A stretch of 64,000 bases of DNA from a virus. Each line of letters starts with the position of its first letter. The stretch's first letter is position 1. The stretch covers positions 20,977 through 84,976 of the IMG/VR virus record IMGVR_UViG_3300030107_006096; one strand, 5' to 3'. The translations under genes and the position numbers were made by a program. Shown here in pieces: positions 7,421-59,838 of the stretch. Under the pieces are notes generated by a model. It had not been told where the DNA came from and made no database searches. It was given only the letters and a program-made list of their open reading frames with translations.

Positions 7421-9547
7421 ATGCCATTTAGTGTTAGCCCTAGTGTTACCGTAACAGAACTAGATCAAAGTTCAATCATCCCTCAAATCGCAACCACAAC
7501 TGGTGCATTCGTGGGAAGATTTGACAAAGGTCCCGTGGATAAAATCGTCGATATTTCAAGCGAGAAAGAACTTTTCGCAATTTTCGGAAAACCATCAGCA
7601 GGAGAAAGAGGAACAGACTGGTGGACATGCGCCAACTTCTTAAACTACAGCGATAAATTAAAGGTCGTTAGAGTTGATGAAGGTGGGGATCAATATAGCA
7701 CGGCATTGGGCGGCGGTGTTGGTTTGACTGCCGGTCGTCCTGCGGCACTTCAAGGAATAACCACTGGAGGAGTAACAACTCTTCCTAGAGTAGAATTTAA
7801 AGAACCGGGACAAATAGGAAATAGTTTAAGATTAGTTGTTTTCCCTGCCGGTGCAGGAGATCCTACTATTCTTTCTGGTACTGGTATTCGATCAGCAGCA
7901 GGAGGTATTGGAAATATTGGAAGTGTTGCAGATTGGAATACTGGCGGAACTGACACCTTTTCTGCCGGCGTCATGGTGAATCCTCTGGGTGGTTTCTATG
8001 CTCCCACTGATACTGATCTTTTCTCCTATAGACCGACAACAACGGGAGAAGTATATAAATCTCATAGAAATGGAATTTTAGCATCTGGAGTTAACAACAC
8101 CACGAACGGCGCAACTATGGATGAAGTTCATATTGCTCTTATTGATGAGAAGGGCTTGATTGCTTCGAATGAAGGAATTACTGGAACAGTCCTTGAAAAA
8201 TGGGAAGGTCTCTCTATGTGGAGAGGTGTTTACGACGGTGCAGGTAAAAACATCTACTATAAAGATGTAATCAATAATGAATCTAATTACATTACAATCG
8301 AAGAGGATATTGATAAGAGTTTGTTTGTAGCACAACATAAGCGTGGCAATGATCTGCCTTGGATAGGCGAAGATTCTACTTTTGGTCATGCAGTAACCGG
8401 CCACACGTTCTCAAATAACGATCCATTGTGGAGTCCCGGCACTACTTTCATGCCGATGCTTCAGTTCTCTGACATGTATACTAATGCGGGTGACAGTGTT
8501 AATCATAATGGCATATCCGCAGGTTATACTGCTTCACCATTAGCATATAATGTAGTATTCAGTGGTGGTCTAGATAGTGGAATCACTTGGCCATATGAAG
8601 GTGCAGGAACCGACAAGGGTAGTGGATTGTTCAATCCGCATCTGGCTGCGATTAAGAACGCATACAGAAAGCACTTTAGAGATTCAGAACAAGTTGATAT
8701 AGATTTGATTCTCGGTGGTGCCGCTGGAAAGATTCTTTCGGCAGATCTCATTGATATAGCAGAACATAGAAAAGATTGTGTCGCGTTTATCTCACCTCCA
8801 ATTTCACCAACTGAAACCGAATATAATTCTGTGGTTTACCAGTCAGAATTACATGGTTTCTCAGGACCTACAAATATCATTAATTATAGAAACGCAAATA
8901 ACTTAAATTCATCTTACGCAGTAATGGACACTGGATGGAAGTATATGTTTGATTCATATAACGGATTCTTCCGATGGGTTCCATTGAATGCAGATGTTGC
9001 TGGACTTTGTGCAAGAACTGAAAATACACAGGAAGCATGGTTCTCTCCTGCTGGATTTAATAGAGGAAGAGTTCAGGGTGTAGTCAAACTTGCAATCAAT
9101 CCAGATAAAGCTGAACGAGATAGACTGTATGCCGCAGGAATTAATCCTGTAGTTTCTTTCCCCGGAGAAGGAACAGTATTGTTTGGTGATAAGACTCTAC
9201 AAAGAAGACCAAGTGCATTGGATAGAATTAATGTACGAAGGTTGATGATTCACTTGGAGAAAGCAATCGCTACTGCTGCCAAGTTCCAACTCTTTGAGTT
9301 TAACGATGTCTTCACTCGAAGATCTTTCGTTAGCACGATCACTCCTTTCTTAAGAAGAGTTCAAGCGAAGAGAGGAATTACAGACTTTAGAGTTGTATGT
9401 GATGAAACAAACAATGATACTTCTGTTATCGAAAATAATCAATTCGTAGCAGACATATTCATCAAACCAGCAATGTCAATCAACTTTATAAATCTGAACT
9501 TCGTGGCTGTTCGACAAGATGCAACTTTCACAGAATCTACTACCTGA
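7421..9547 (+). CDS. gp18: Contractile tail sheath protein gp18
   Basis: A 708-residue protein (T4 gp18 is 659). The N-terminus, with PSVTVTELDQSSIIPQIATTTGAFVGRF, is the classic phage sheath signature. The C-terminal third (INVRRLMIHLEKAIATAAKFQLFE... through FVADIFIKPAMSINFINLNF) is the conserved inner sheath domain that packs on the tube. The middle Gly/Ser-rich part is the variable outer domain. SD AAGGAG precedes ATG 7421, and the gene has its own late promoter at 7356. Confidence 0.96.
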   Translation: MPFSVSPSVTVTELDQSSIIPQIATTTGAFVGRFDKGPVDKIVDISSEKELFAIFGKPSAGERGTDWWTCANFLNYSDKLKVVRVDEGGDQYSTALGGGVGLTAGRPAALQGITTGGVTTLPRVEFKEPGQIGNSLRLVVFPAGAGDPTILSGTGIRSAAGGIGNIGSVADWNTGGTDTFSAGVMVNPLGGFYAPTDTDLFSYRPTTTGEVYKSHRNGILASGVNNTTNGATMDEVHIALIDEKGLIASNEGITGTVLEKWEGLSMWRGVYDGAGKNIYYKDVINNESNYITIEEDIDKSLFVAQHKRGNDLPWIGEDSTFGHAVTGHTFSNNDPLWSPGTTFMPMLQFSDMYTNAGDSVNHNGISAGYTASPLAYNVVFSGGLDSGITWPYEGAGTDKGSGLFNPHLAAIKNAYRKHFRDSEQVDIDLILGGAAGKILSADLIDIAEHRKDCVAFISPPISPTETEYNSVVYQSELHGFSGPTNIINYRNANNLNSSYAVMDTGWKYMFDSYNGFFRWVPLNADVAGLCARTENTQEAWFSPAGFNRGRVQGVVKLAINPDKAERDRLYAAGINPVVSFPGEGTVLFGDKTLQRRPSALDRINVRRLMIHLEKAIATAAKFQLFEFNDVFTRRSFVSTITPFLRRVQAKRGITDFRVVCDETNNDTSVIENNQFVADIFIKPAMSINFINLNFVAVRQDATFTESTT

Positions 9548-9582: not shown

Positions 9583-10101
9583 ATGTCAATAGATACTTTT
9601 GCTGACAAGTTTAGAGGGGGAATGAGACCTACACTCTTTAGAGTGGATGGTAACATTCCAGGCCAAAACACATCAAGTGAGGATAGAACTTTCTTCATTA
9701 AGTCATCTCAATTCCCCGCATCTACTGTGGGTGTAATTGAAGTGCCATATAAAGGAAGAAAGATTAAAAGACCCGGAGATAGAACATTTGCTGAATGGTC
9801 AATTACTGTTTTAGCAGATGAAGCGGGAAGTATTCGAGCAGATTTTGTTCATTGGTTGGAAAGAATTAATTCCCATCAAAATATTACAGTTTCTGATAAT
9901 GTAAATGATATCTTTGCTGAGTGGAGTATAACTGCTCTTGGTGTTAATGATCAACCATTAGATACAATTACACTTGTGAGATGCTTCCCAACAGAAGTTG
10001 GAGCAATGGATTTCAGTTACGAAACTACAGATTCGGTAGCAGAGTTTACTGTAACGCTGCAATACGATTACTGGTTAGGCGGCGGTGCAGCCGGCTCCTG
10101 A
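9583..10101 (+). CDS. gp19: Tail tube protein gp19
   Basis: A 172-residue protein close to T4 gp19 in length (163). It has the tube-protein layout: N-terminal FADKFRGGMRPTLFRVD, the loop FFIKSSQFPASTVGVIEVPYKGR, and the helix FVHWLERINSH. Its subunits stack as hexameric rings inside the sheath. It is paired with gp18 upstream and gp20 downstream, as in T4. Confidence 0.93.
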   Translation: MSIDTFADKFRGGMRPTLFRVDGNIPGQNTSSEDRTFFIKSSQFPASTVGVIEVPYKGRKIKRPGDRTFAEWSITVLADEAGSIRADFVHWLERINSHQNITVSDNVNDIFAEWSITALGVNDQPLDTITLVRCFPTEVGAMDFSYETTDSVAEFTVTLQYDYWLGGGAAGS

Positions 10102-21123: not shown

Positions 21124-21674
21124 ATATTTTTGTACTGGATGAGAATCCACAAACCGCCGCACAAATGATGTGCGACAAGCATGTAGTAAAAATGATTGTA
21201 GAGTCCGGACAAATGCTTTCTACGGCATGGAGAGTTCTAGATGGAGACCAATATACGGAACTGTCTGCAAACAATCGCCGAATCAAAAGATGGAAATTAC
21301 CTTACGAAATGTTTGAGGAGATGTTATACAAAGCCTCATTTGTTGGACATCCATGTACCCAATGGACAATGGAAAATCAAAAGAACTATTATTGGTTAGC
21401 AGAACACGCATATGCTTTGTGTAGAGAATACACTTACAGATATAAAGGTAAAGAACATAAAGCACAAGATATGATTTCTTATATGCGTTATCGTAAACCT
21501 GCGAACATAAAAATGTCAGAGTCTATGACTCCATTTGCTCAAGCGATGCCCGATACATATAAGAACAAAGATGCTGTGAAAGCCTATCGTGCGTATTATC
21601 TCGGCGAAAAAACTGGGTTTGCAAAATGGAGTCACAGAGAAACTCCTACTTGGTATGAGGAGGCATTAGTTTGA
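21120..21674 (+). CDS. Conserved phage protein of unknown function between 47 and 46
   Basis: A 184-residue protein with a GTG start at 21120 that overlaps the gp47 stop; its own stop overlaps the gp46 start. The N-terminus (FVLDENPQTAAQMMCDKHVVKMIVESGQML) and a Trp/Tyr-rich middle (PCTQWTMENQKNYYWL) resemble a family I recall from many T4-like genomes without a function. Its sandwiching within the 47-46 transcript suggests a role in end processing or host DNA breakdown, which is inference. Confidence 0.75.
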   Translation: MNIFVLDENPQTAAQMMCDKHVVKMIVESGQMLSTAWRVLDGDQYTELSANNRRIKRWKLPYEMFEEMLYKASFVGHPCTQWTMENQKNYYWLAEHAYALCREYTYRYKGKEHKAQDMISYMRYRKPANIKMSESMTPFAQAMPDTYKNKDAVKAYRAYYLGEKTGFAKWSHRETPTWYEEALV

Positions 21675-23383
21675 TAATATTCCAAACATTAAGTTGGAGA
21701 AACTTTCTCTCAACAGGAAACTATAAGACAACTGTTGATCTAACTCGTCATGATAATACACTTGTGTCTGGCGAGAATGGTGCAGGCAAATCTACAATGC
21801 TAGATGCATTGACGTTTTCTTTGTTTGGAAAATCATTTCGTGGCATCAAAATCCCACAGCTACCAAACTCTATTAATGAAAAAGACTGTGAAGTAGAAAT
21901 TAATTTTACAATCGGAAAAGATGAGTACCGAGTTGTTCGTGGACTTAAGCCTAAAAAGTTTGAGATATACAAGAATGATGATTTGCTTCCACAAGATGCA
22001 AAGTCCAAGGACTATCAAAAAATACTTGAAGAACAGATTCTCAAGATGAGTTACAAATCATTTTGTCAGGTTGTAATATTGGGATCATCAAACTATGTCC
22101 CTTTCATGCAACTTAGTGCCGCAGATCGTCGAGCGGTGGTTGAGAACCTTCTAGACATTGATATATTTTCTGCCATGAATACCCTTGTAAAGATGAGACT
22201 TCAGATAACGAAAGAGTATATCAAGGATGTTGATTATAAGATCGAGATTACAAAGAGTAAGGCTGAAGATAAACAAAAACTCATAAAGACACTTGAAAAG
22301 AAATCAAGTGATTCGGTTGAAAAGTATGAAGAGGAAATCAAAGAGAATCGAAAAATGATTTCCGAATACAATCATATAATCGAATCATATCAAACTAATA
22401 TTGAACATCTAATGAGTCAAATAAAGGATAAAGATATTATTCCTAAGTCTCTATTGAACATGGAGTCCGATGAAAAGGAATTGAAGAACAAGATTAAAAC
22501 TATTCAGAAGAACGTAAAGTTTTATGAAGAGAATGATACCTGTCCTTCATGTAAGCAAGATATACAACAACATCATCGTGATAGTGTCTTTGCAGAAAAG
22601 AAGAAAGAAAAAGAATCTATTGATTCACAATTAGAGGAACTGTCCGAGACAATCGATTCGGTTCAAAAAAGATTGAATGACATCAATGCAGTATTGACTA
22701 CTATAGAGGGAATTGAGAAGGCAATCTCAACTAAACAAAATGAGATTTCAGTTTCTTCACAATACATTGACAAGATGCAAAAGAATATTGAATCAGTTCT
22801 TACTGAAGGAAAAGAGGTTCAAGAAACCAAAGATGAATTGAACCAACTGATTGGTGAGGGAAAGAATCATGTCACAAGAAGAAAAGAGTTGGTCGAAGAT
22901 AAACATTATTATGGTATTGCTTCTACTCTTTTGAAAGACAGTGGAATCAAATCAAAAATTATCAAGCACTACTTGCCGATTATGAACAAACTGATTAACA
23001 AGTATCTTGCGGACATGGATTTCTTTTGTCAGTTCAACCTTGACGAAAACTTCAGCGAGACAATTAAGAGCCGACATCGTGACGAGTTTACCTACCATAG
23101 TTTCAGTGAAGGTGAACGATTGCGTATTGACTTGTCGTTGCTTCTTGCATGGCGAGAGATTGCACGGTTAAAGAATAGTGTGAATTGTAATCTTTTGATT
23201 CTTGATGAGGTGTTTGACTCTAGCCTTGACGGAGTTGGCACAGAAGAGTTCTTAAAGATATTAACATCGTTCGGTAATCGTGCTAACATATTTGTAATCA
23301 GTCACAAGTCTGATTCAATGACAGACAAGTTTCAGAATCATATTGTGTTTGAAAAGAAGAACAACTTCAGTAGGATAAAATGA
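21671..23383 (+). CDS. gp46: Recombination endonuclease subunit gp46 (Rad50-like)
   Basis: A 570-residue SMC-type ATPase (T4 gp46 560). Walker A is GENGAGKS (34-41), a zinc-hook CPSC lies at C291/C294 at the turn of a long coiled coil, the signature is FSEGERLRIDLSLLLAW, and Walker B is LLILDEVFDSSLD. The start is TTG 21671 with a strong GGAGG at 21659-21663; no ATG lies nearby. It is the partner of gp47. Confidence 0.97.
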   Translation: MIIFQTLSWRNFLSTGNYKTTVDLTRHDNTLVSGENGAGKSTMLDALTFSLFGKSFRGIKIPQLPNSINEKDCEVEINFTIGKDEYRVVRGLKPKKFEIYKNDDLLPQDAKSKDYQKILEEQILKMSYKSFCQVVILGSSNYVPFMQLSAADRRAVVENLLDIDIFSAMNTLVKMRLQITKEYIKDVDYKIEITKSKAEDKQKLIKTLEKKSSDSVEKYEEEIKENRKMISEYNHIIESYQTNIEHLMSQIKDKDIIPKSLLNMESDEKELKNKIKTIQKNVKFYEENDTCPSCKQDIQQHHRDSVFAEKKKEKESIDSQLEELSETIDSVQKRLNDINAVLTTIEGIEKAISTKQNEISVSSQYIDKMQKNIESVLTEGKEVQETKDELNQLIGEGKNHVTRRKELVEDKHYYGIASTLLKDSGIKSKIIKHYLPIMNKLINKYLADMDFFCQFNLDENFSETIKSRHRDEFTYHSFSEGERLRIDLSLLLAWREIARLKNSVNCNLLILDEVFDSSLDGVGTEEFLKILTSFGNRANIFVISHKSDSMTDKFQNHIVFEKKNNFSRIK

Positions 23384-23853
23384 TGCTTGTGAAACATGGC
23401 ACCGAATCTCAAATAAAAGAAATATACGATACCTTTCGGTTGTATAAAGATATATTTCCACATCTACGATTTGATTATCTTACTCGCAAGGTTAAATCAG
23501 ATAGATGCATTTATGAAGATGATGTTGCCATCACTTACACAATCTATCAAAGAAAAAATAAAGTAGGAACGTCTTATGAGAATTTAGAGTTGAAAGCCTC
23601 CAAGGGTGATGTTATGATACATCAACTTGCAAATGCAAATCCAAGTAACGGCAAGAGCAAGGAGATCGTGCAAAGATTTCTCGAAGAGAATTGTCATGGT
23701 AAAAGAGTATGGTTGACTGTTCGTCAAAACAATGATCGTGCCGTACGCTTTTATGAAAAGATGAATTTCAAAAATGTCGGAACTGTACATTGGATGAAAG
23801 GAAAACTACCCGGATATGTCTTCTGTTATGTCACAAATAAAACCATACTATGA
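23380..23853 (+). CDS. GNAT-family acetyltransferase-like protein
   Basis: A 157-residue protein coupled to gp46 by ATGA overlap. It has the GNAT layout: a central strand before MIHQLANANPSNGKSKEIV (an atypical pyrophosphate loop), then VRQNNDRAVRFYEKMNFKNVG, the typical N-D-R-A-x-x-F-Y-x-K-x-G/N-F C-terminal motif. The acceptor is unknown. It overlaps the following DNA methyltransferase by 38 bases, suggesting the two act on a related target. Confidence 0.78.
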   Translation: MMLVKHGTESQIKEIYDTFRLYKDIFPHLRFDYLTRKVKSDRCIYEDDVAITYTIYQRKNKVGTSYENLELKASKGDVMIHQLANANPSNGKSKEIVQRFLEENCHGKRVWLTVRQNNDRAVRFYEKMNFKNVGTVHWMKGKLPGYVFCYVTNKTIL

Positions 23854-25420
23854 ACGCAACAACCATGTGATTGATTCGCATGTGAATTGCAACTTTGAAG
23901 ATTTACTTGAGATGACTCCAGACGAGTTTCGTGAATGGGTCATCGAAATGCGTAAGGCAGTAAAACAAGCATGGGACACTTACGGCTGTCCTCCACGAAC
24001 CGGCAAAGATGAACAAGACATCATTGATTCTTTCAATAAGATTGCCGAGTATCCAGTTCATAAATTCACACACACCGATGAACTGTCTGACATGGACGAT
24101 GATGTAATCATCAACAAGTCTCGTCTTGGAGTGGAAGTTGATCAATGGTTCTCGAATATGTTCAAGACAAGAATCAACTACACCGAAAAAGATAATGGAT
24201 ATTCTATCTATGATCTGGTAGCCGATGATAAGAGATTGGATCAGGTTGTGAAGGGAGCGATGCGTCATCTTCGTCGTGATTCATTTTACACTCATGCACT
24301 TTCCGCGATCAAGCATGATAAGAAATATGCTGTCGTAGATGTGGGAAGTGGCGATGAATGGATGGAAGCATTCTTCAACAATCCAAATATATTTCGAGGA
24401 TATGATTTCCTACTTGAACAGGTGAAGATTCGTGACGGGGCGAACACTGGATATTTTCAGTTAGAACAGGACGACATTCTTCAGCTAACGAAGGATCAGG
24501 TGGAGAAGTGGAAGAATAAAATGGAATACCGCCATTACTCTACTTTTGATATTTCTGCAATGCCTGATGATAAAGTGTATGCAATCCGTATATATAGAAA
24601 AGGGAGAAAGGTATTTCCTGCTGCTTTTAAGTCTTTTAGGATAGGATATATTCAACCTGCGGTAAACTTTCCGCCAATGACTGCGAAATATTTGTATGAA
24701 AGATTCACAGAAAATATTAAAGATCAAGAACGCATTGTTATATACGACCCGTCAAGTGGGTGGGGCGGCCGCATACTCGGTGCTATGGGTTGTCGGGATG
24801 ATCGTCGGATTCACTATGTTGGCACTGACCCAAATCCTGATAATTTTCTTGATGGCGATTCTTACAGTAAGTATGAGTCTCTCGCTGATTTTTACAACAC
24901 CAAAACTTATCGCGGAAATCCATTCTTTTCCGAAACGAACTCTTACCATATTTTCAAAGAGGGTTCGGAGGAGATTGGCAAACACTCTGATTTCCAACAA
25001 TATAAAGGGAAAACAGATCTTATTTTTACATCGCCACCCTATTTCAACAGGGAAGCATACTCAGAAGACGAAAATCAATCGTACAAAAAATACGGATCGT
25101 CATATGAATCATGGAAAGAAGGTTTTCTTCGACCAACATTAACAACTTGTGTTGAGTGGTTAAAGGAAGATAGATATTTATTATGGAACGTAGCCGATGT
25201 TTTAGTGAGTGGTAAATATTTACCGATAGAGCAAGATAGTATTGACATATTAGAATCTTTAGGTATGATTTATAAGTATACTTTGAAGATGGGACTGGAA
25301 GGAATGCCAGGTCAAAATAGAGTGGGAGAAGATGGAAAGCCCAAATGTAAAAATTTCTGTCAGGTGAATGGAAAATATTTAAAGTACGAACCAGTATTTG
25401 TTTTTTATAAAGGAACTTGA
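23816..25420 (+). CDS. DNA methyltransferase (N6-adenine/N4-cytosine type)
   Basis: A 534-residue protein. The C-terminal half has SAM motif I, YDPSSGWGGR (from Y310), and catalytic motif IV, TSPPYF (residues 405-410), in the order I then IV. The SPPY type indicates amino-methylation. The first 300 residues match no part I recognise and may bind the DNA target or a second substrate. No restriction endonuclease is adjacent, so it is a solitary phage methylase, perhaps for evading host restriction. The start could also be ATG 23828. Confidence 0.85.
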   Translation: MSSVMSQIKPYYERNNHVIDSHVNCNFEDLLEMTPDEFREWVIEMRKAVKQAWDTYGCPPRTGKDEQDIIDSFNKIAEYPVHKFTHTDELSDMDDDVIINKSRLGVEVDQWFSNMFKTRINYTEKDNGYSIYDLVADDKRLDQVVKGAMRHLRRDSFYTHALSAIKHDKKYAVVDVGSGDEWMEAFFNNPNIFRGYDFLLEQVKIRDGANTGYFQLEQDDILQLTKDQVEKWKNKMEYRHYSTFDISAMPDDKVYAIRIYRKGRKVFPAAFKSFRIGYIQPAVNFPPMTAKYLYERFTENIKDQERIVIYDPSSGWGGRILGAMGCRDDRRIHYVGTDPNPDNFLDGDSYSKYESLADFYNTKTYRGNPFFSETNSYHIFKEGSEEIGKHSDFQQYKGKTDLIFTSPPYFNREAYSEDENQSYKKYGSSYESWKEGFLRPTLTTCVEWLKEDRYLLWNVADVLVSGKYLPIEQDSIDILESLGMIYKYTLKMGLEGMPGQNRVGEDGKPKCKNFCQVNGKYLKYEPVFVFYKGT

Positions 25421-25422
25421 AA

Positions 25423-26856
25423 ATGGCAAAAAAGAAAAAGGGAAACCTTCTCTACATCATGAACCCTAATTGTGGATGGTGCAAGAAAGCTGATCCTGTA
25501 GTTGAGGAATTGGTCAAAGATGGATATAAAATTAAGACATTAAATGTCCAGAACCAAGATGATGCAATAAAGGCAAGAGAAGCTATTACAAAGCATGGTA
25601 TTCAATGCGGAACTCCATTGTTCCTAGATTCAAAGACAGGTAACATGGTATGTGGTTTTAGGGAAAAAGATATTCTTGAAAAATGGGCAAATGGAGAAGA
25701 GATGCCTGCTCCGCCTCCAAGAGAACAACCTCAACAGCCTCAACATGTTGAAAAAGAGACTAGAGTTAGATTGGAATATATTTGGCTGGACGGTAAAGAG
25801 ACAACTGGTATCAGGTCAAAAATTAAATTTGAAAACATTAAACTGCCTCCTGTGAATCCCCATGCTCCACCTCCTATTGATGAACTCATGGGAAAAATTC
25901 CTGATTGGTCATTTGATGGTTCAAGCACATCTCAGGCAGAAGTAGAGAATAGTGATTTAATTTTGAAGCCTGTTAAGATTGTAAGAAATAGTTTAGAACG
26001 ACAACAGCCTGGGGGTCAAATATCATTAATAGTTTTATGTGAAGTTTTCAATGTAGATGGGACGCCCCATGAGTCAAATGCTCGATATAACTTGAGATCT
26101 TTTGTTGATGAAAATGAAATGGACGATTTGGTAGTTTCCTCAGAGCAAGAGTATGTATTTTGGAACCATGACTTAGATTTGCCATCTGGTTGGGAGTCTT
26201 CGGATAAAGATGGTTCAATGGGCGAACCTTCAAATGAGGGAGATTACTATTGTGGTTTTGCATTAGACAACTCTACCGTTGGTGGTACTCATAGAATGAT
26301 TGCAGATTTCCACGCAAATGTTTGTGGTATGTGTGATATTAGTTTAAGTGGATATAATGCAGAGGTTATGAAATCCCAGTGGGAGTATCAAACAGCACCA
26401 TCTGATGTTTTAACTTCGGCAGATAATCTTTGGATTAGTAGATATCTTTTAATGAGAATTTCTGAACAAAGAGGACTAGGTATTTCTTTTGATCCTAAAC
26501 CTGTTGACGGAAATTATAATGGTTCTGGTTGTCATATTAATTTTTCCACCAAGACAATGAGAGAAGGATCAAACGAAATCGTAGAAGAAATCTGTGAGTC
26601 ACTTGCTTTAAATCACGAAAAAGCAATTTCATCTTATGGTGTGGGAAATGATAAAAGACTAACAGGAAAAAATGAAACTTCTAAAATTGATAAGTTTACA
26701 TATGGTAAAGGTGATAGATCTTGTTCTTTAAGGATTCCAGTTGGAGATTATCTTGAAGATAGAAGACCTGCTGCAAACGTAGATCCCTATGTTGCTTTTC
26801 TTAATCTGTCAGAAGTTTTGACAGATGTTAATAATAAAGTTTTAGAAAGAGTGTAG
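25423..26856 (+). CDS. Thioredoxin-fold / type II glutamine synthetase fusion
   Basis: A 477-residue protein from ATG 25423 (SD AGGAAC). Residues 1-90 are a thioredoxin/glutaredoxin-like domain with the redox motif CGWC (C17, C20) and a later TPLF, the cis-Pro site. A Pro/Gln linker (about 93-109) joins it to a complete GSII-type glutamine synthetase domain (about 110-477). Visible GSII motifs are WSFDGSST, SEQEYVFW (E241, E243), YNAEVMKSQWEYQ, NGSGCHINFSTKTMRE (H371), RLTGKNETS and EDRRPAANVDPYV (R447, R448). GSII is mainly eukaryotic, with scattered bacterial members. The reaction would be ATP-dependent glutamine synthesis from glutamate and ammonia. The fusion is unusual in a phage. The domain calls are confident; the biological role is inferred. 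Confidence 0.93.
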   Translation: MAKKKKGNLLYIMNPNCGWCKKADPVVEELVKDGYKIKTLNVQNQDDAIKAREAITKHGIQCGTPLFLDSKTGNMVCGFREKDILEKWANGEEMPAPPPREQPQQPQHVEKETRVRLEYIWLDGKETTGIRSKIKFENIKLPPVNPHAPPPIDELMGKIPDWSFDGSSTSQAEVENSDLILKPVKIVRNSLERQQPGGQISLIVLCEVFNVDGTPHESNARYNLRSFVDENEMDDLVVSSEQEYVFWNHDLDLPSGWESSDKDGSMGEPSNEGDYYCGFALDNSTVGGTHRMIADFHANVCGMCDISLSGYNAEVMKSQWEYQTAPSDVLTSADNLWISRYLLMRISEQRGLGISFDPKPVDGNYNGSGCHINFSTKTMREGSNEIVEEICESLALNHEKAISSYGVGNDKRLTGKNETSKIDKFTYGKGDRSCSLRIPVGDYLEDRRPAANVDPYVAFLNLSEVLTDVNNKVLERV

Positions 26857-26861
26857 ACTAA

Positions 26862-27221
26862 ATGCCAAGGAAAAAAAGAATTGATAATATCACTGGTTTG
26901 AGTGATAATACTAACCTATCATATGAAGGATATCTAAAGGCTGCTTTGGCTTTAATGTCAGATCAGTTTTCAATCAGAGTTTATAAGTTGGCTCCCAAAA
27001 ATGAATATCCAATATTCGAGAGAGGGAAGGATATCAGAGTTCAATTCTACTGCAACAAAAAAAGAATATATGAATTTATCATAGAAAAGATGTTCTATTA
27101 CCAAAGCAATAGAAACAAGGAGGACAGGGCATGGATGAGAACTCATGCTTCTGTTCACCTAAATATGGTAAAGAATGCCATTATTAGGAAAGAGAAAAAT
27201 GTCTCTAAGATACCCGGATGA
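26862..27221 (+). CDS. Hypothetical protein downstream of glutamine synthetase
   Basis: A 119-residue, basic protein (many Lys/Arg) with no signal peptide or membrane segment. The middle region around SDQFSIRVYKLAPKNEYPIFERGKD is mixed alpha/beta. I do not recognise a family. It follows the glutamine synthetase by 5 bases and overlaps the next gene, so it is likely co-transcribed. Confidence 0.65.
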   Translation: MPRKKRIDNITGLSDNTNLSYEGYLKAALALMSDQFSIRVYKLAPKNEYPIFERGKDIRVQFYCNKKRIYEFIIEKMFYYQSNRNKEDRAWMRTHASVHLNMVKNAIIRKEKNVSKIPG

Positions 27222-27710: not shown

Positions 27711-28541
27711 ATTATTCTTTTAGATAACAATCAAATACTTTTTGCTAATGTTTTTCAGTCTATAAAATATTCTTCTACTGTTGATGAAGATTTTTTGAGA
27801 CACATGACTCTAAACACATATCGCTTCTACAGAAATAAATTTCAGTCTGAATATGGTGAACTTGTAATTTGTAACGACTCTAAGAATTATTGGAGGAAAG
27901 ACATTTTTCCATATTACAAGCACAGTAGAAAACAAAAAATTAAGTCTTCTGAATTGGATTGGGATTCCATCTTCAATAGCATGACAAAGATAAGAGAAGA
28001 AGTTAAAAATACTTTCCCCTATAAAAATATAACTGTTGAAAGAACAGAAGCCGACGACATCATATCAGTGATTTGTAAAAACTATAACGATGAGAAGATG
28101 TTGATAGTTTCAAGCGATAAAGACTTTCAACAACTTCAAAGATATCCCAACGTAGAACAATATAGCCCAATAAGAAAAGATTTTCTTGTGTGTGATGATC
28201 CGGAGACATTTTTATTGGATCATATAATTAAAGGTGACTCTTCAGATGGAATACCTAATATTCTATCTGATGATGATGTTTTCACAATAGAAGACAAAAG
28301 ACAAAAAGCATGTGGTAAAAAAAGAATGACCACAATCAAAGAAGACATTTCCCAGTGGTCGAATACAGATCATTGGAAAAGAAATCAAAGTCTAATTGAT
28401 TTAAATCTTATTCCAGAACAGTATCAGTCTGCTATAATTAAGGAATATGAAAAAGAACCTATTGGTAAAAGAAGTAATATATTGAATTACTTTATAACAA
28501 ACAAATTAAAAAATTTAATGTCTAACATAGAGGAGTTTTAG
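27711..28541 (+). CDS. rnh: RNase H / 5'-3' flap exonuclease (T4 Rnh-like), ATT start
   Basis: The homologous N-terminus MILLDNNQILFANVF is encoded from ATT 27711, 8 bases after the SD GGAG (27699-27702). No ATG, GTG or TTG lies near it in frame, and starting at the first ATG (27795) would remove the first metal-binding Asp (LLDNN). The length would be 276 residues, against 305 in T4. Conserved parts are VICNDSKNYWRKDIFPYY, ERTEADDIIS, SSDKDFQQL and KGDSSDGIPNI. It removes RNA primers during lagging-strand synthesis. Confidence 0.85.
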   Translation: MILLDNNQILFANVFQSIKYSSTVDEDFLRHMTLNTYRFYRNKFQSEYGELVICNDSKNYWRKDIFPYYKHSRKQKIKSSELDWDSIFNSMTKIREEVKNTFPYKNITVERTEADDIISVICKNYNDEKMLIVSSDKDFQQLQRYPNVEQYSPIRKDFLVCDDPETFLLDHIIKGDSSDGIPNILSDDDVFTIEDKRQKACGKKRMTTIKEDISQWSNTDHWKRNQSLIDLNLIPEQYQSAIIKEYEKEPIGKRSNILNYFITNKLKNLMSNIEEF

Positions 28542-28741: not shown

Positions 28742-29437
28742 ATGATTACTGCGACTAGCGTGAAATTGTCAAAAGAGACACTTTCAATTCTTAAAAACTT
28801 TTCTGCACACAACAGTAACTTGTTGGTTAAGCCGGGAAATGAAATTAATACAATCACACCTGCAAAGAACGTAGTTGCGAAGGCGACTGTGCAGGAAGAT
28901 TTTCCTGTTGAATTTGGAATCTGGGACTTGAATAAGTTTCTAGGAACAATTTCTCTTTTCAACGATCCTGAATTTACTTTTGATGAGAAGTGTGTTCGTA
29001 TTGAAGGCGAAGATGGTGCAAAGGTGGATTACTATTATTCCGAACCTAGACTTCTTTCTACGTTGACAAAAGATGTTAATATGCCTGAGTCAGTTGTTCA
29101 CTTTTCAATAACAGAGGATAACTTTATCTCATTACAAAGAGCAGCTTCAGTTCTACAACTTCCAGATCTTTGTATTCGATCTAACGACAATAATGAAATT
29201 TTATTGGTTGTTCTTGATAAAAAGAGTTCAACATCAAATCAATTTGCTATAACTGTTGGTGAAAATGAAACTGGTGCTAGTTTTGAATTTTACCTTAAGA
29301 TGGAGAATATTAGACTTCTTGCTGGCAATTATGACGTATCAGTTTCTAAGACTGTAGTTAGTAAGTTTTCTCATCAATCTACGGATTTAGTCTACTACAT
29401 AGCACTAGAGAATGATTCTACTTTCAGTGGAGATTGA
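28742..29437 (+). CDS. gp45: Sliding clamp gp45
   Basis: A 231-residue protein (T4 gp45 228). It has the opening VKLSKETLSILKNFSAHNSNLLVKPG, the FGIWDLNKFLGTISLF strand-helix, and the ending YYIALENDSTF, all typical of T4-type clamps. The SD GGAG is at 28730-28733. It is the processivity factor for gp43 and a partner of gp55 in late transcription. The usual downstream neighbour gp44 is displaced here by two fucose-pathway genes. Confidence 0.96.
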   Translation: MITATSVKLSKETLSILKNFSAHNSNLLVKPGNEINTITPAKNVVAKATVQEDFPVEFGIWDLNKFLGTISLFNDPEFTFDEKCVRIEGEDGAKVDYYYSEPRLLSTLTKDVNMPESVVHFSITEDNFISLQRAASVLQLPDLCIRSNDNNEILLVVLDKKSSTSNQFAITVGENETGASFEFYLKMENIRLLAGNYDVSVSKTVVSKFSHQSTDLVYYIALENDSTFSGD

Positions 29438-29439
29438 TT

Positions 29440-30339
29440 ATGAAAACTTTAGTGACGGGCGGTAATGGACTTGTAGGTTCAACAATCGATTCTGATTTTA
29501 AACCCACAAGAGAAGGCTTAGATCTCATGAACATAGATGAGATTTGTGAATATATTATTCACAATGACATAGATTCTATTGTCCACTGTGCTGCTAAGGT
29601 TGGTGGAATTAAGGCAAACACAGAACAACTAGGTCAATTTTATTACGATAACATATCAATCAACACAAACATTCTTGAAGCGGCAAGAAAAACAAAAGTG
29701 AAGAAGGTAGTTTCTTTTCTTTCTACTTGTGTTTTCCCAGAAGAAGCAACATACCCATTGACTTCAGATCAGATGCACAATGGAGAACCACATCCATCTA
29801 ATTACGCATATGCTTATGCAAAAAGAATGCTAGAAGTTCAGAGTAGAGCTTACAGGGATGAGTACGGTTGCAATTTTATTACGGTAATACCGTGTAATAT
29901 CTACGGTCCAAATGATAATTACAATTTGGATTCCGGACATGTTATCCCGTCTCTAATTCATAAATGTTATCTAGCGAAAAAGAATAATACAGATTTTGAA
30001 ATTTGGGGAACTGGAACTCCATACCGTGAATTTATATATTCAAAAGATGTGGGATATCTTACTCAGTGGGCATTAGAGAACTATGATGATCCAGAACCTT
30101 TAATTCTTTCTCCTGATGAGGAAATAAGCATTGCAACTATTGCTCAAGAGATTGCATGGAGAATGGGATTTGAAGGTAACATATTTTACAATCAGGAAAG
30201 AGATGGTATACATAGAAAACCATCTGATAACAGTAAAATAAAGTCACTGTTGCCTGAGTATAAGTTTGTTCCTATTGAAATGGGGCTAAAGGAAAGTATA
30301 GATTGGTTTATAAAAAATTACGATGAGGCTAGAAAATGA
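29440..30339 (+). CDS. fcl: GDP-L-fucose synthase
   Basis: An extended SDR of 299 residues from ATG 29440; a TTG two codons earlier is less likely. The NAD(P) motif is TGGNGLVG (6-13). Family-specific motifs are AAKVGGIKAN, FLSTCVFPEE and the catalytic YAYAK. It performs the epimerase/reductase step from GDP-4-keto-6-deoxymannose to GDP-L-fucose. It overlaps gmd, the enzyme for the preceding step. It lies inside the replication gene block, between 45 and 44. Confidence 0.95.
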   Translation: MKTLVTGGNGLVGSTIDSDFKPTREGLDLMNIDEICEYIIHNDIDSIVHCAAKVGGIKANTEQLGQFYYDNISINTNILEAARKTKVKKVVSFLSTCVFPEEATYPLTSDQMHNGEPHPSNYAYAYAKRMLEVQSRAYRDEYGCNFITVIPCNIYGPNDNYNLDSGHVIPSLIHKCYLAKKNNTDFEIWGTGTPYREFIYSKDVGYLTQWALENYDDPEPLILSPDEEISIATIAQEIAWRMGFEGNIFYNQERDGIHRKPSDNSKIKSLLPEYKFVPIEMGLKESIDWFIKNYDEARK

Positions 30340-31325
30340 AAAGAGCATTAATTACAGGTATAAATGGTCAAGACGGATCATATCTAGCAGAGTTTCTGCT
30401 TGAAAAAGGATATGAAGTTCATGGTATTCTCAAGAGAAACTCTGTCGCAGAAAACCAGACTGCTCGTTTGGATAATTGTTATGAAGATTTACATTTATAC
30501 TATGGAGATCTAACTGATCTATCATCTTTAATTTCGATTCTACAAAAGGTACAACCCGATGAGGTTTATAACCTAGCAGCACAGTCTCATGTTCGCATTA
30601 GTTTTGATGTCCCTATCTATACTGCGTGTGCTACAGGATTGGGAGTTCTCAATGTATTTGAGGCATGTCGTCTAATATGCCCAAAGACTAAAATTTATCA
30701 AGCATCATCATCAGAGATGTTTGGAAACTGCATTGACGATGATGGATTTCAAAGAGAAACTACTGCTATGAGACCCGTAAGCCCTTACGGTTGTTCTAAA
30801 GTTTTCGCATACAACATAGCAAAGAATTATTGTCATTCGTATGATATGTTTATATCTAATGGAATTCTATTCAATCATGAATCACCAAGAAGAGGATCTA
30901 ATTTTGTAACTAGCAAAGTTGTAAAGGCAGCAGTTGCAATTAAAATGGGCAAACAAAAAGAATTAAGAATGGGCAACTTAAATGCAAGTCGTGATTGGGG
31001 TCATGCAAAGGATTATGTAAAGGCTATGTGGATGATTCTTCAGCATGACACACCGGATGACTTTGTTTGCTCCACCGGCATTTCACACAACGTAAAATAT
31101 CTTTGCGAATATACTTTCAATTCTCTTGATATGAACTATGAAGATTATATAATTACAGATGAAAAGTATCTTCGTCCAGAGGAATTGGAACATCTTAAGG
31201 GGGACTCTACTAAACTCAGAGAAACTTTAGGATGGGAACCAGATTATACTTTTGAACAAATGATAGAAGAAATGATAGACGTTGAGCTTTCCAAGCACGG
31301 ATTAAAACGAGAGGATATAGTATGA
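30336..31325 (+). CDS. gmd: GDP-mannose 4,6-dehydratase
   Basis: A 329-residue extended SDR (bacterial Gmd is about 350-370). The cofactor motif is TGINGQDGSYLAE (from T7), followed by LHLYYGDLTD, NLAAQSHV, SSSEMFG, the catalytic pair Y151/K155 in PYGCSK, and SPRRGSNFVT, all diagnostic of GMD. The product, GDP-4-keto-6-deoxymannose, feeds Fcl directly upstream and could also feed the DegT aminotransferase at 50470. It is coupled to gp44 by ATGA overlap. Confidence 0.96.
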   Translation: MKRALITGINGQDGSYLAEFLLEKGYEVHGILKRNSVAENQTARLDNCYEDLHLYYGDLTDLSSLISILQKVQPDEVYNLAAQSHVRISFDVPIYTACATGLGVLNVFEACRLICPKTKIYQASSSEMFGNCIDDDGFQRETTAMRPVSPYGCSKVFAYNIAKNYCHSYDMFISNGILFNHESPRRGSNFVTSKVVKAAVAIKMGKQKELRMGNLNASRDWGHAKDYVKAMWMILQHDTPDDFVCSTGISHNVKYLCEYTFNSLDMNYEDYIITDEKYLRPEELEHLKGDSTKLRETLGWEPDYTFEQMIEEMIDVELSKHGLKREDIV

Positions 31326-58512: not shown

Positions 58513-59838
58513 ATGTTAGAAAGTTTTTCAAATTATTCTCCTAAAAATGAATATTCTGTTCGCACGGGAAATTCAAATGTAATTACAGGTTCAAATAAAA
58601 TTGGATCTGAATTTGCTATAGTACAAGACGTTGGAGAGATAAAAGAAAATACTACCTTAACTCTCGTCGAAAAAGAAAATGCAGTAGATCCTTTTTTCTT
58701 TCAAGTAGGAAAAGGATTAGCAGAGGCATATTTCAAAGACTCCAAACAAAAATATTATTGTTTTACAGGCTCCACTTCTCAAATTGAAGAATTGTTTGAC
58801 TCAATTGAACCCAAGTTCGAAGAACATATCATTGAAGATGAAGAGATAATAAATGAGATTATGATTCAAGGACCTGTTGGAGAAAAGGGAGATATTGGTG
58901 AACAAGGCCCCCAAGGTGAAATAGGACCACAGGGAGTAAAGGGAGATACCGGCTTAAGAGGAATTCAAGGTGAACAAGGCCCTCAGGGAGAGCAGGGGGA
59001 TCAAGGTGAACAAGGCGAAGTTGGAGAACAAGGCCCTCAAGGCGAACGAGGTGAAGTTGGAGAACAAGGCCCTCAGGGAGAACAGGGTGTCCAAGGTGAG
59101 CAAGGAATTCAAGGAATACAAGGTGAACAAGGCGCTAAAGGTGAGCAAGGAATTCAAGGAGTTCCCGGCATTAAAGGTGATCGGGGCGAACAGGGAATTC
59201 AAGGCGAACAAGGTCTTCAAGGTGAGCAAGGAATACAAGGTGAACGTGGCGAAGTTGGAGAAAAAGGCCCTAAAGGTGAACAGGGCATCCGGGGAGTTCG
59301 GGGAGAAAAGGGCGATAGAGGTGCAGAGGGAAAACGAGGACTTAAAGGCGAAAAAGGCGACAAAGGCGATCCAGGCGAAAAGGGAGATCCCGGAGAACCT
59401 GTGCAAATTAAAACTGGAAAAGGACTAAAGTACAACAAAAAGAAAAATGAACTTTGGTTAGATCCAAACACATTCCCTCCAGTTCCATTAGGACAAGTTG
59501 GGGGTGCAGTGATCGGCGGCGGTGGTAGTAACACTGGTGTCCAATCTGATGAAACAGTAATCAGAAGCACAGTAAGGCATATAAATTTTGCCTCAGACTT
59601 TACGGTGGAGAAGACTGGAAAAGAAGACGTTAAAGTTACAGTGAATCCAGCAACTCAAGAAAACCGACATGCACAAGCTAACTACGGCTCATTGTCAGCC
59701 GGTGCTGCTAAGTCACAAGAGTCAAACAATCCCTCAATTGTATTAACTGCTGGTGGCAATAATGAAATATTCCAAAACTTGGATATGAAAGATAATGAAA
59801 TAAAAAATGTAAAATTAGACGGTGGAACTTTCACCTAA
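58513..59838 (+). CDS. Collagen-like fibre protein
   Basis: A 441-residue protein. Residues 120-296 are 59 uninterrupted Gly-X-Y triplets with many GEQ, GIQ, GPQ and late GDP/GEP triplets. This is flanked by an N-terminal domain of about 119 residues, probably the attachment part, and a C-terminal beta-like domain with a Gly-rich hinge ([12 protein letters not shown]) that could nucleate trimer folding. Such collagen-like proteins form phage fibres. Overlapping long frames in other phases are artefacts of the repeat. Confidence 0.88.
58870..59400 (+). repeat. Collagen-coding Gly-X-Y repeat tract
   Basis: 531 bases coding for 59 GXY triplets, with many near-identical units such as those for GEQGIQ and GEVGEQ. 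The repetitive DNA is prone to recombination and length change, so fibre length may vary between isolates. Confidence 0.9.

Follow-up and report, generated by a model that had tools for sequence, protein, structure and literature searches.

Does a bacteriophage really encode a glutamine synthetase (GS) tethered to a thioredoxin-like domain, and what could such a protein do during infection? The question is raised by one open reading frame (ORF) in the window, the 64,000-nucleotide stretch of an IMG/VR virus record (84,976 bases in total) that we analysed here. A preliminary description had proposed that this ORF combines a CGWC redox domain, a Pro/Gln linker and a complete class II GS (GSII), and all three are indeed present in a single frame (Table 1), which runs from an ATG at 25423, directly past the stop of the upstream gene (25420), to a stop codon ending at 26856, with zero internal stops. 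Each of the motifs it had named was also found, namely C17GWC20 in the N-terminal head and, in the GS half, DGSST (165-169), EQEY (241-244), NAEVM (312-316) with QWE (319-321), GSGCH (367-371), LTG (413-415) with ETS (418-420), and EDRRP (445-449). An AlphaFold2 model of the full protein, built with 26 homologous fusions in the alignment, has a pLDDT of 82.2 and a pTM of 0.72; linker residues 98-108 fall below a pLDDT of 50.

Table 1. Features of the fusion gene and its neighbours, in coordinates of the window
Feature	Position	Strand	Evidence or remark
gp46-like SMC/AAA protein	21671..23383	+	PF02463 1.1e-14, PF13476 3.7e-9; synteny cluster 5
DNA methyltransferase-like, TSPPYF motif	23816..25420	+	PF01555 4e-5 (under cut-off); phrog_498 3e-9
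Shine-Dalgarno-like AAAGGA	25409..25414	+	eight bases 5' of fusion ATG; read from sequence
Thioredoxin-GSII fusion gene	25423..26856	+	477 aa plus stop; homologous fusions on 26 other virus contigs
Thioredoxin-fold head	25444..25701	+	residues 8-93: C17GWC20, C62, T64-P65, C77
Pro/Gln-rich linker	25702..25758	+	approximately residues 94-112
Class II glutamine synthetase domain	25759..26853	+	approximately residues 113-477
Conserved small downstream gene	26862..27221	+	synteny cluster 6; no Pfam match at 0.1
T4 RNase H-like exonuclease	27795..28541	+	PF09293 1.3e-13; phrog_107 1.8e-45
Sliding clamp, gp45-like	28742..29437	+	phrog_223 3.6e-70

The fusion is real. Besides the window, 26 distinct contigs with 22 IMG dataset numbers have the same in-frame architecture; at least three pairs among them are near-identical in the GS domain. 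The linker varies from 16 to 40 residues over the 27 fusions (23 in the window protein, with the boundaries used to compare head and GS conservation). Because so many other contigs share this architecture, with variable linkers, we can exclude that an error of sequencing or assembly, such as a linker frameshift, merged two separate genes; we give this virtually no probability. An IMG/VR protein scan returned 12 loci, seven of them full-length fusions, and a scan with a head profile returned 40, among which 23 carry GSII. With a GS profile, at least 570 viral stretches were found to encode relatives, and the head is present in 16 of the best 80. Head-less GSII is widespread in IMG/VR, accounting for 64 of the best 80 of these at least 570 stretches (L054-L133), some in records over 100 kb. 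The corresponding scan of prokaryotic genomes gave at least 582 stretches encoding GSII relatives; none of the best 80 has a CxxC extension, which rules out a fused cellular GSII among the loci kept. All shares among kept loci are biased, because the 80 retained per scan were the most similar ones. A search of 50,697 phage records with the GS half gave matches at 41% in four records of uncultured huge phages, two of which have the same length and score, and at 24-27% in five further records. The head is absent from the three huge-phage GS frames that were read, and alone it gave no match at E 0.01 in the same 50,697 records.

Profile searches returned GlnII for the GS part and, as a near miss, thioredoxin for the head. 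The NCBIfam GlnII model matches residues 115-458 at 6.6e-82 (275.3 bits), compared with 8.9e-17 for type I GlnA and 4.5e-14 for type III; since 275.3 bits lies under the GlnII equivalog cut-off (500 bits), we describe the GS half as a GSII relative rather than as an equivalog-level GlnII. A sequence search of the PDB concurs, the best 16 chains, which we take in part by assumption to be class II enzymes, scoring 4.4e-71 to 1.2e-61 and the next one 6.7e-11, as does the predicted fold, for which Foldseek ranks Streptomyces coelicolor GSII (4bax) first (3.6e-36), followed by the maize and human enzymes. We checked 14 active-site positions in 165 aligned unique GS domains: all 27 fusions have the same residue at each, and so do the 51 unfused viral rows, apart from a single row that is gapped across the last motif. 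In the window protein these are D165, E241, E243, E314, E321, N366, G367, H371, R412, E418, R432, R437, E445 and R447, which presumably correspond, in this order, to D63, E134, E136, E196, E203, N248, G249, H253, R299, E305, R319, R324, E338 and R340 of the human enzyme. We take them to form the metal, glutamate, nucleotide and ammonia sites, D165 being the presumed ammonia-site Asp, the retention of which favours ammonia as the substrate. Since residues, fold and selection agree and this Asp is retained, the GS half is very likely to be catalytically active, as judged from sequence and model, and its role is likely the supply of glutamine.

The head scores 22.9 bits against PF00085 (residues 3-87, 8.6e-5), narrowly missing the Pfam gathering cut-off of 23.5, so its assignment to the thioredoxin family rests on the fold. 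Modelled alone with AlphaFold (pLDDT 85.6), it places the CxxC at the N-terminal end of the first helix (residues 18-32), and Foldseek returns thioredoxins on top, with E from 1.2e-4 and TM of about 0.6; among PHROG families it matches PHROG 22 ("thioredoxin domain"). CGWC, C62, Thr64-Pro65, presumably the cis-Pro position of thioredoxins, and C77 are invariant in the alignment of all 27 fusions. The head is thus likely to be redox-active, with a predicted disulfide reductase activity. Outside the window, 13 of the 26 fusions (L014, L025 and L033 among them) have, ahead of the head, a Cys-bearing N-terminal tag of the MACKxC type that possibly binds metal; a CxC...CxC pattern occurs in nine of the 26. 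The window protein has no such tag.

The source genome is that of a T4-like phage of bacteria. The record encodes Gp23, terminase, portal, sheath, head maturation protease and DNA helicase, together with an SbcD-like (gp47-like) protein, a sliding clamp and a clamp loader, and the terminase matches those of Synechococcus and Methylophilales phages at 59-61% (best 15 of 2,647 records). T4-like replication genes flank the fusion, in agreement with the phage setting first proposed; the product of 21671..23383 we take to be gp46. The unfused GSII of relatives in the same phage clade occupies the identical replication-gene slot: the clamp lies at most seven genes from GS in 26 of 27 fused and 10 of 17 unfused loci; of the clade's 27 unfused members, 17 entered the synteny counts. 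The fusion is therefore an auxiliary metabolic gene, in the sense of a metabolic gene inside a phage genome. The name TATAAATA designates an extended form of TATAAAT, the T4-like late box given in PMC9004378. The window holds six such boxes against 5.84 expected, which is chance level; four precede ORFs of the virion-gene region by 20-60 bases (that of the sheath at 7421 and those at 9583, 13416 and 16190), another stands about 145 bases ahead of the sheath ORF, and the fusion has none of the six in its vicinity. Because the fusion gene has replication genes around it and lacks a nearby box resembling a late promoter, early or middle synthesis of the enzyme is probable; this timing rests mainly on synteny, since the box count equals chance. 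A glutamine riboswitch, as described for the related phage Melnitz in the available text of the same paper (PMC9004378), was rejected here: no Rfam family matches the window at its gathering score, and the three hits below that score between 20000 and 34000 include no riboswitch.

Elsewhere the window contains a large sugar and glycan cassette (29434-31325 and 34211-56577) with GDP-mannose dehydratase, NeuB, cytidylyltransferase, UDP-GlcNAc 2-epimerase and DegT aminotransferases, as well as many ORFs that look by eye like glycosyltransferases. Also noted by eye were a protein of collagen-like GxxGxx repeats (58513-59838), perhaps a fibre, and a leucine-rich-repeat-like protein close to the virion genes (131-2035). 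Outside the window, the first part of the record (G000:C1:1-20976; L217, L218) holds several large proteins in succession that are very rich in cysteine (1710, 1040, 784, 687 and 878 aa among others), with repeats like GACC..DG.C, perhaps of the virion or fibre. A link between the head and these giant proteins was considered and dropped: matches to one of them turn up in five of 37 records (in four of 36 if this record is not counted), two with a fused GS (G000, G062) and three with an unfused one (G002, G009, G013).

In a tree of 113 sequences, the 54 phage rows (27 fused and 27 unfused) group together (SH-aLRT 97) and are separated from the huge-phage, bacterial and eukaryotic rows; another 24 unfused viral rows also fall outside this group, on the far side of the tree. 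A careful 66-row tree concurs on this group (98/91). The trees drew on unique GS sequences, which number 51 among the 64 unfused viral rows, and took in 28 of the 80 cellular rows (113-sequence tree) or four of them (66-row tree). The phylogeny with bacterial and viral members thus places the GS half in a distinct phage group. On the 66-row tree the fused label changes four times, at least three of these changes being forced by supported branches, and a single fused clade is rejected (p-AU 1.6e-5); the head has therefore been gained or lost repeatedly. This may reflect one gain followed by several losses, or repeated gains, and recombination between phages could contribute. Both halves are under purifying selection: over nine informative pairs, dN/dS ranges from 0.08 to 0.23 in the head and from 0.035 to 0.21 in GS, with dS saturated in some pairs and near 2 in two of the GS pairs. 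The pair L014/L015 was set aside, being nearly identical, with a GS ratio of 0.43 on very few changes. On these results, the preliminary description stood as regards the fusion, the GSII class as opposed to type I, the active site without a lost catalytic-looking residue and the phage setting, whereas its view of GSII as mostly eukaryotic was not borne out as stated, given the numerous prokaryotic and viral relatives counted above and the separation of the phage GS from the four eukaryotic rows.

The head is not restricted to GS. At 17 of the 40 loci of the head-profile scan, a Pro-rich stretch leads into a different C-terminal part, short in 13 cases (L020, L028, L037, L038, L041, L043, L044, L045, L046, L047, L049, L050, L051) and longer, about 200 residues, in four (L031, L048, L052, L053). 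The short and long parts appear by eye unrelated to each other and to GS, and three such proteins matched only thioredoxin-like Pfam families, weakly, or nothing. Their neighbourhoods differ from the GS slot; several short-part heads are close to a gene resembling GMP reductase by eye. In a tree of 43 heads (87 columns; L038, identical to L037, was left out) the groups are mixed, with six changes of the fused label, at least two of them forced. Two further ideas about partners were tried and rejected. The head as reductant of a phage ribonucleotide reductase finds no counterpart in the 27 fused records, from which the large subunit is absent (control positive in 11/14 genomes), and a phage glutamine amidotransferase as glutamine consumer finds none in 15 records, with GATase_6 in 0/15 (control 14/14). 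Runs without a positive control gave no separate head gene in 27 unfused GS records and no GS gene in the 17 records with other-part heads. All four absences are weak, because the records are fragments.

How, then, should the pairing be read? In the accessible part of the tobacco study PMC8219043, chloroplast GS2 is reported as redox-responsive and as a thioredoxin target, and the fused phage GS keeps C206, C277 and C301; it could thus be imagined, as in the suggestion that the redox domain senses or switches GS activity, that the tethered thioredoxin senses redox and toggles the enzyme in cis through its cysteines. This suggestion has been weakened, since in no GS column is cysteine exclusive to the fused proteins. 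C206, C277 and C301 are equally conserved in unfused phage GS, and the two columns with unequal frequencies, 179 (Cys in 0.52 of fused and 0.33 of unfused forms against 0.93 of bacterial rows, and missing from the window protein) and 391 (0.93 fused, 0.74 unfused, 1.00 bacterial), have cysteines in both. GS positions 325 (after QWEYQ) and 420 (in the ETS motif) do vary with the head; however, this rests on three independent pairs and is not significant, and these positions were dropped. As the head, moreover, is gained or lost among relatives that keep GS and carries other C-terminal parts too, a dedicated switch appears improbable. The equal conservation of the cysteines and the non-significance of 325 and 420 lead us to favour a tethered reductant or protector over such a switch.

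The main rival to a reductant is an adapter, the head mainly docking its cargo, GS or another part, to a conserved host or phage partner, with CGWC making or stabilising the contact and GS working without redox regulation. The three kinds of cargo behind a Pro-rich linker, the mixing of cargo groups in the head tree and the cysteine pattern just described are all compatible with docking, as is the stronger conservation of the head, which has a median of 0.67 against 0.52 for GS and exceeds GS in 346 of the 351 comparisons between fused forms; these comparisons have rows in common and so are not independent of one another. The invariance of CGWC and Thr-Pro in the 27 fusions nevertheless goes beyond what docking needs, and we regard an adapter as somewhat unlikely. 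The GS-fold domain might also catalyse a different linkage, gamma-glutamyl or amide, for instance by acting with its methyltransferase-like neighbour in the modification of DNA or bases. This neighbour directly precedes the GS gene at 24 of 27 fused loci and at 11 of 17 unfused ones, and so is kept beside GS, with or without the head, at most loci examined; it is not directly upstream in some relatives (e.g. L002, L003, L040, L069, L082). The ammonia-site Asp and the checked metal, glutamate and nucleotide positions are intact, and the nearest solved folds are GSII. Among BFVD viral models, none of a phage GSII is near the fusion model: the best match is an unnamed protein (F2Y1E9; E 1.1e-8, TM 0.29 of the query), and named phage amidoligases are weak matches, at E 2e-3 and worse. 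We consider such a chemistry very improbable.

We place middling confidence in an auxiliary GSII with a tethered dithiol oxidoreductase head that serves as a plug-in module rather than as a dedicated switch, a proposal built on sequence comparison and structural models. The GSII half would join glutamate and ammonia, at the expense of ATP, into glutamine, and it would probably form the usual GSII oligomer, each subunit carrying one thioredoxin domain on a flexible Pro/Gln linker. The glutamine could provide amide nitrogen for nucleotides, amino sugars and protein. GlnA of many bacteria is controlled by adenylylation; the phage enzyme would belong to another class, which makes a bypass of host GlnA control plausible. 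The head would most likely work as a dithiol oxidoreductase recharged by host thioredoxin reductase and may maintain reduced thiols on the synthetase or on nearby proteins, the virus pool coupling the same module to other C-terminal parts as well. Whether it acts upon its own GS is uncertain, and we lean slightly against it. Interchangeable head and GSII might even make up a self-reducing nitrogen-assimilating enzyme whose output tracks cell redox during infection, which we think unlikely.

If the plug-in proposal is true, uncultured T4-like phages use the head as a redox module that is attached by a Pro-rich linker to various proteins; its presence on varied C-terminal parts suggests a modular phage trick without match in the 50,697 phage records. 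In any case, a virus lineage has covalently linked a redox protein to a central nitrogen-assimilating enzyme and keeps both halves under purifying selection. Natural pairs with and without the head, such as fused L005 and unfused L059 and L069, could expose the effect of a tethered thioredoxin.

GS had initially been described as no standard metabolic gene of phages. The view that it is foreign to them is not supported, viral GS genes having been published: in their available text, GS is reported in SAR86 viruses (PMC10721903), jumbo phages (PMC13037316) and Microcystis viruses (PMC12542629), and, in a review, in viromes of the ETSP (PMC9083009). The accessible parts of two other papers concern glutamate synthase, not GS, in virus sequences (PMC3474794) and GS only as background to GlnK (PMC8115048). 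The present gene resembles these auxiliary genes in being a virus-borne GS; it differs in its thioredoxin head, of which the available parts of the four reports make no mention, and the class of GS is unstated in those parts. That no fusion of thioredoxin and GS had been described agrees with our literature search, a search of titles outside preprints and most subscription papers, in which no report of one was found.

With GSII/GlnII enzymes (S. coelicolor 4bax, maize 2d3a, human 2qc8) the phage protein shares the fold and the 14 checked active-site positions; it adds the N-terminal thioredoxin head and the linker, and its sequence belongs to a separate phage group. The head resembles thioredoxins (Bacillus subtilis 2gzy and others; PHROG 22) in its fold, its CxxC site and the Thr-Pro preceding a strand, and differs from them in having CGWC, the classical thioredoxin motif being CGPC, and two additional invariant cysteines, C62 and C77. 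A GS of the same class is found in plants, as chloroplast GS2 is a class II enzyme. In the tobacco study, excess thioredoxin m raised both the activity and the stability of GS2 in trans, according to the available text, in which cysteines specific to GS2 are also described and thioredoxin m could not be demonstrated to redox-activate GS2 directly (PMC8219043). Whereas the chloroplast thioredoxin acts in trans (in the available text of PMC8219043), that of the phage is tethered to a GS without a cysteine specific to the fused form.
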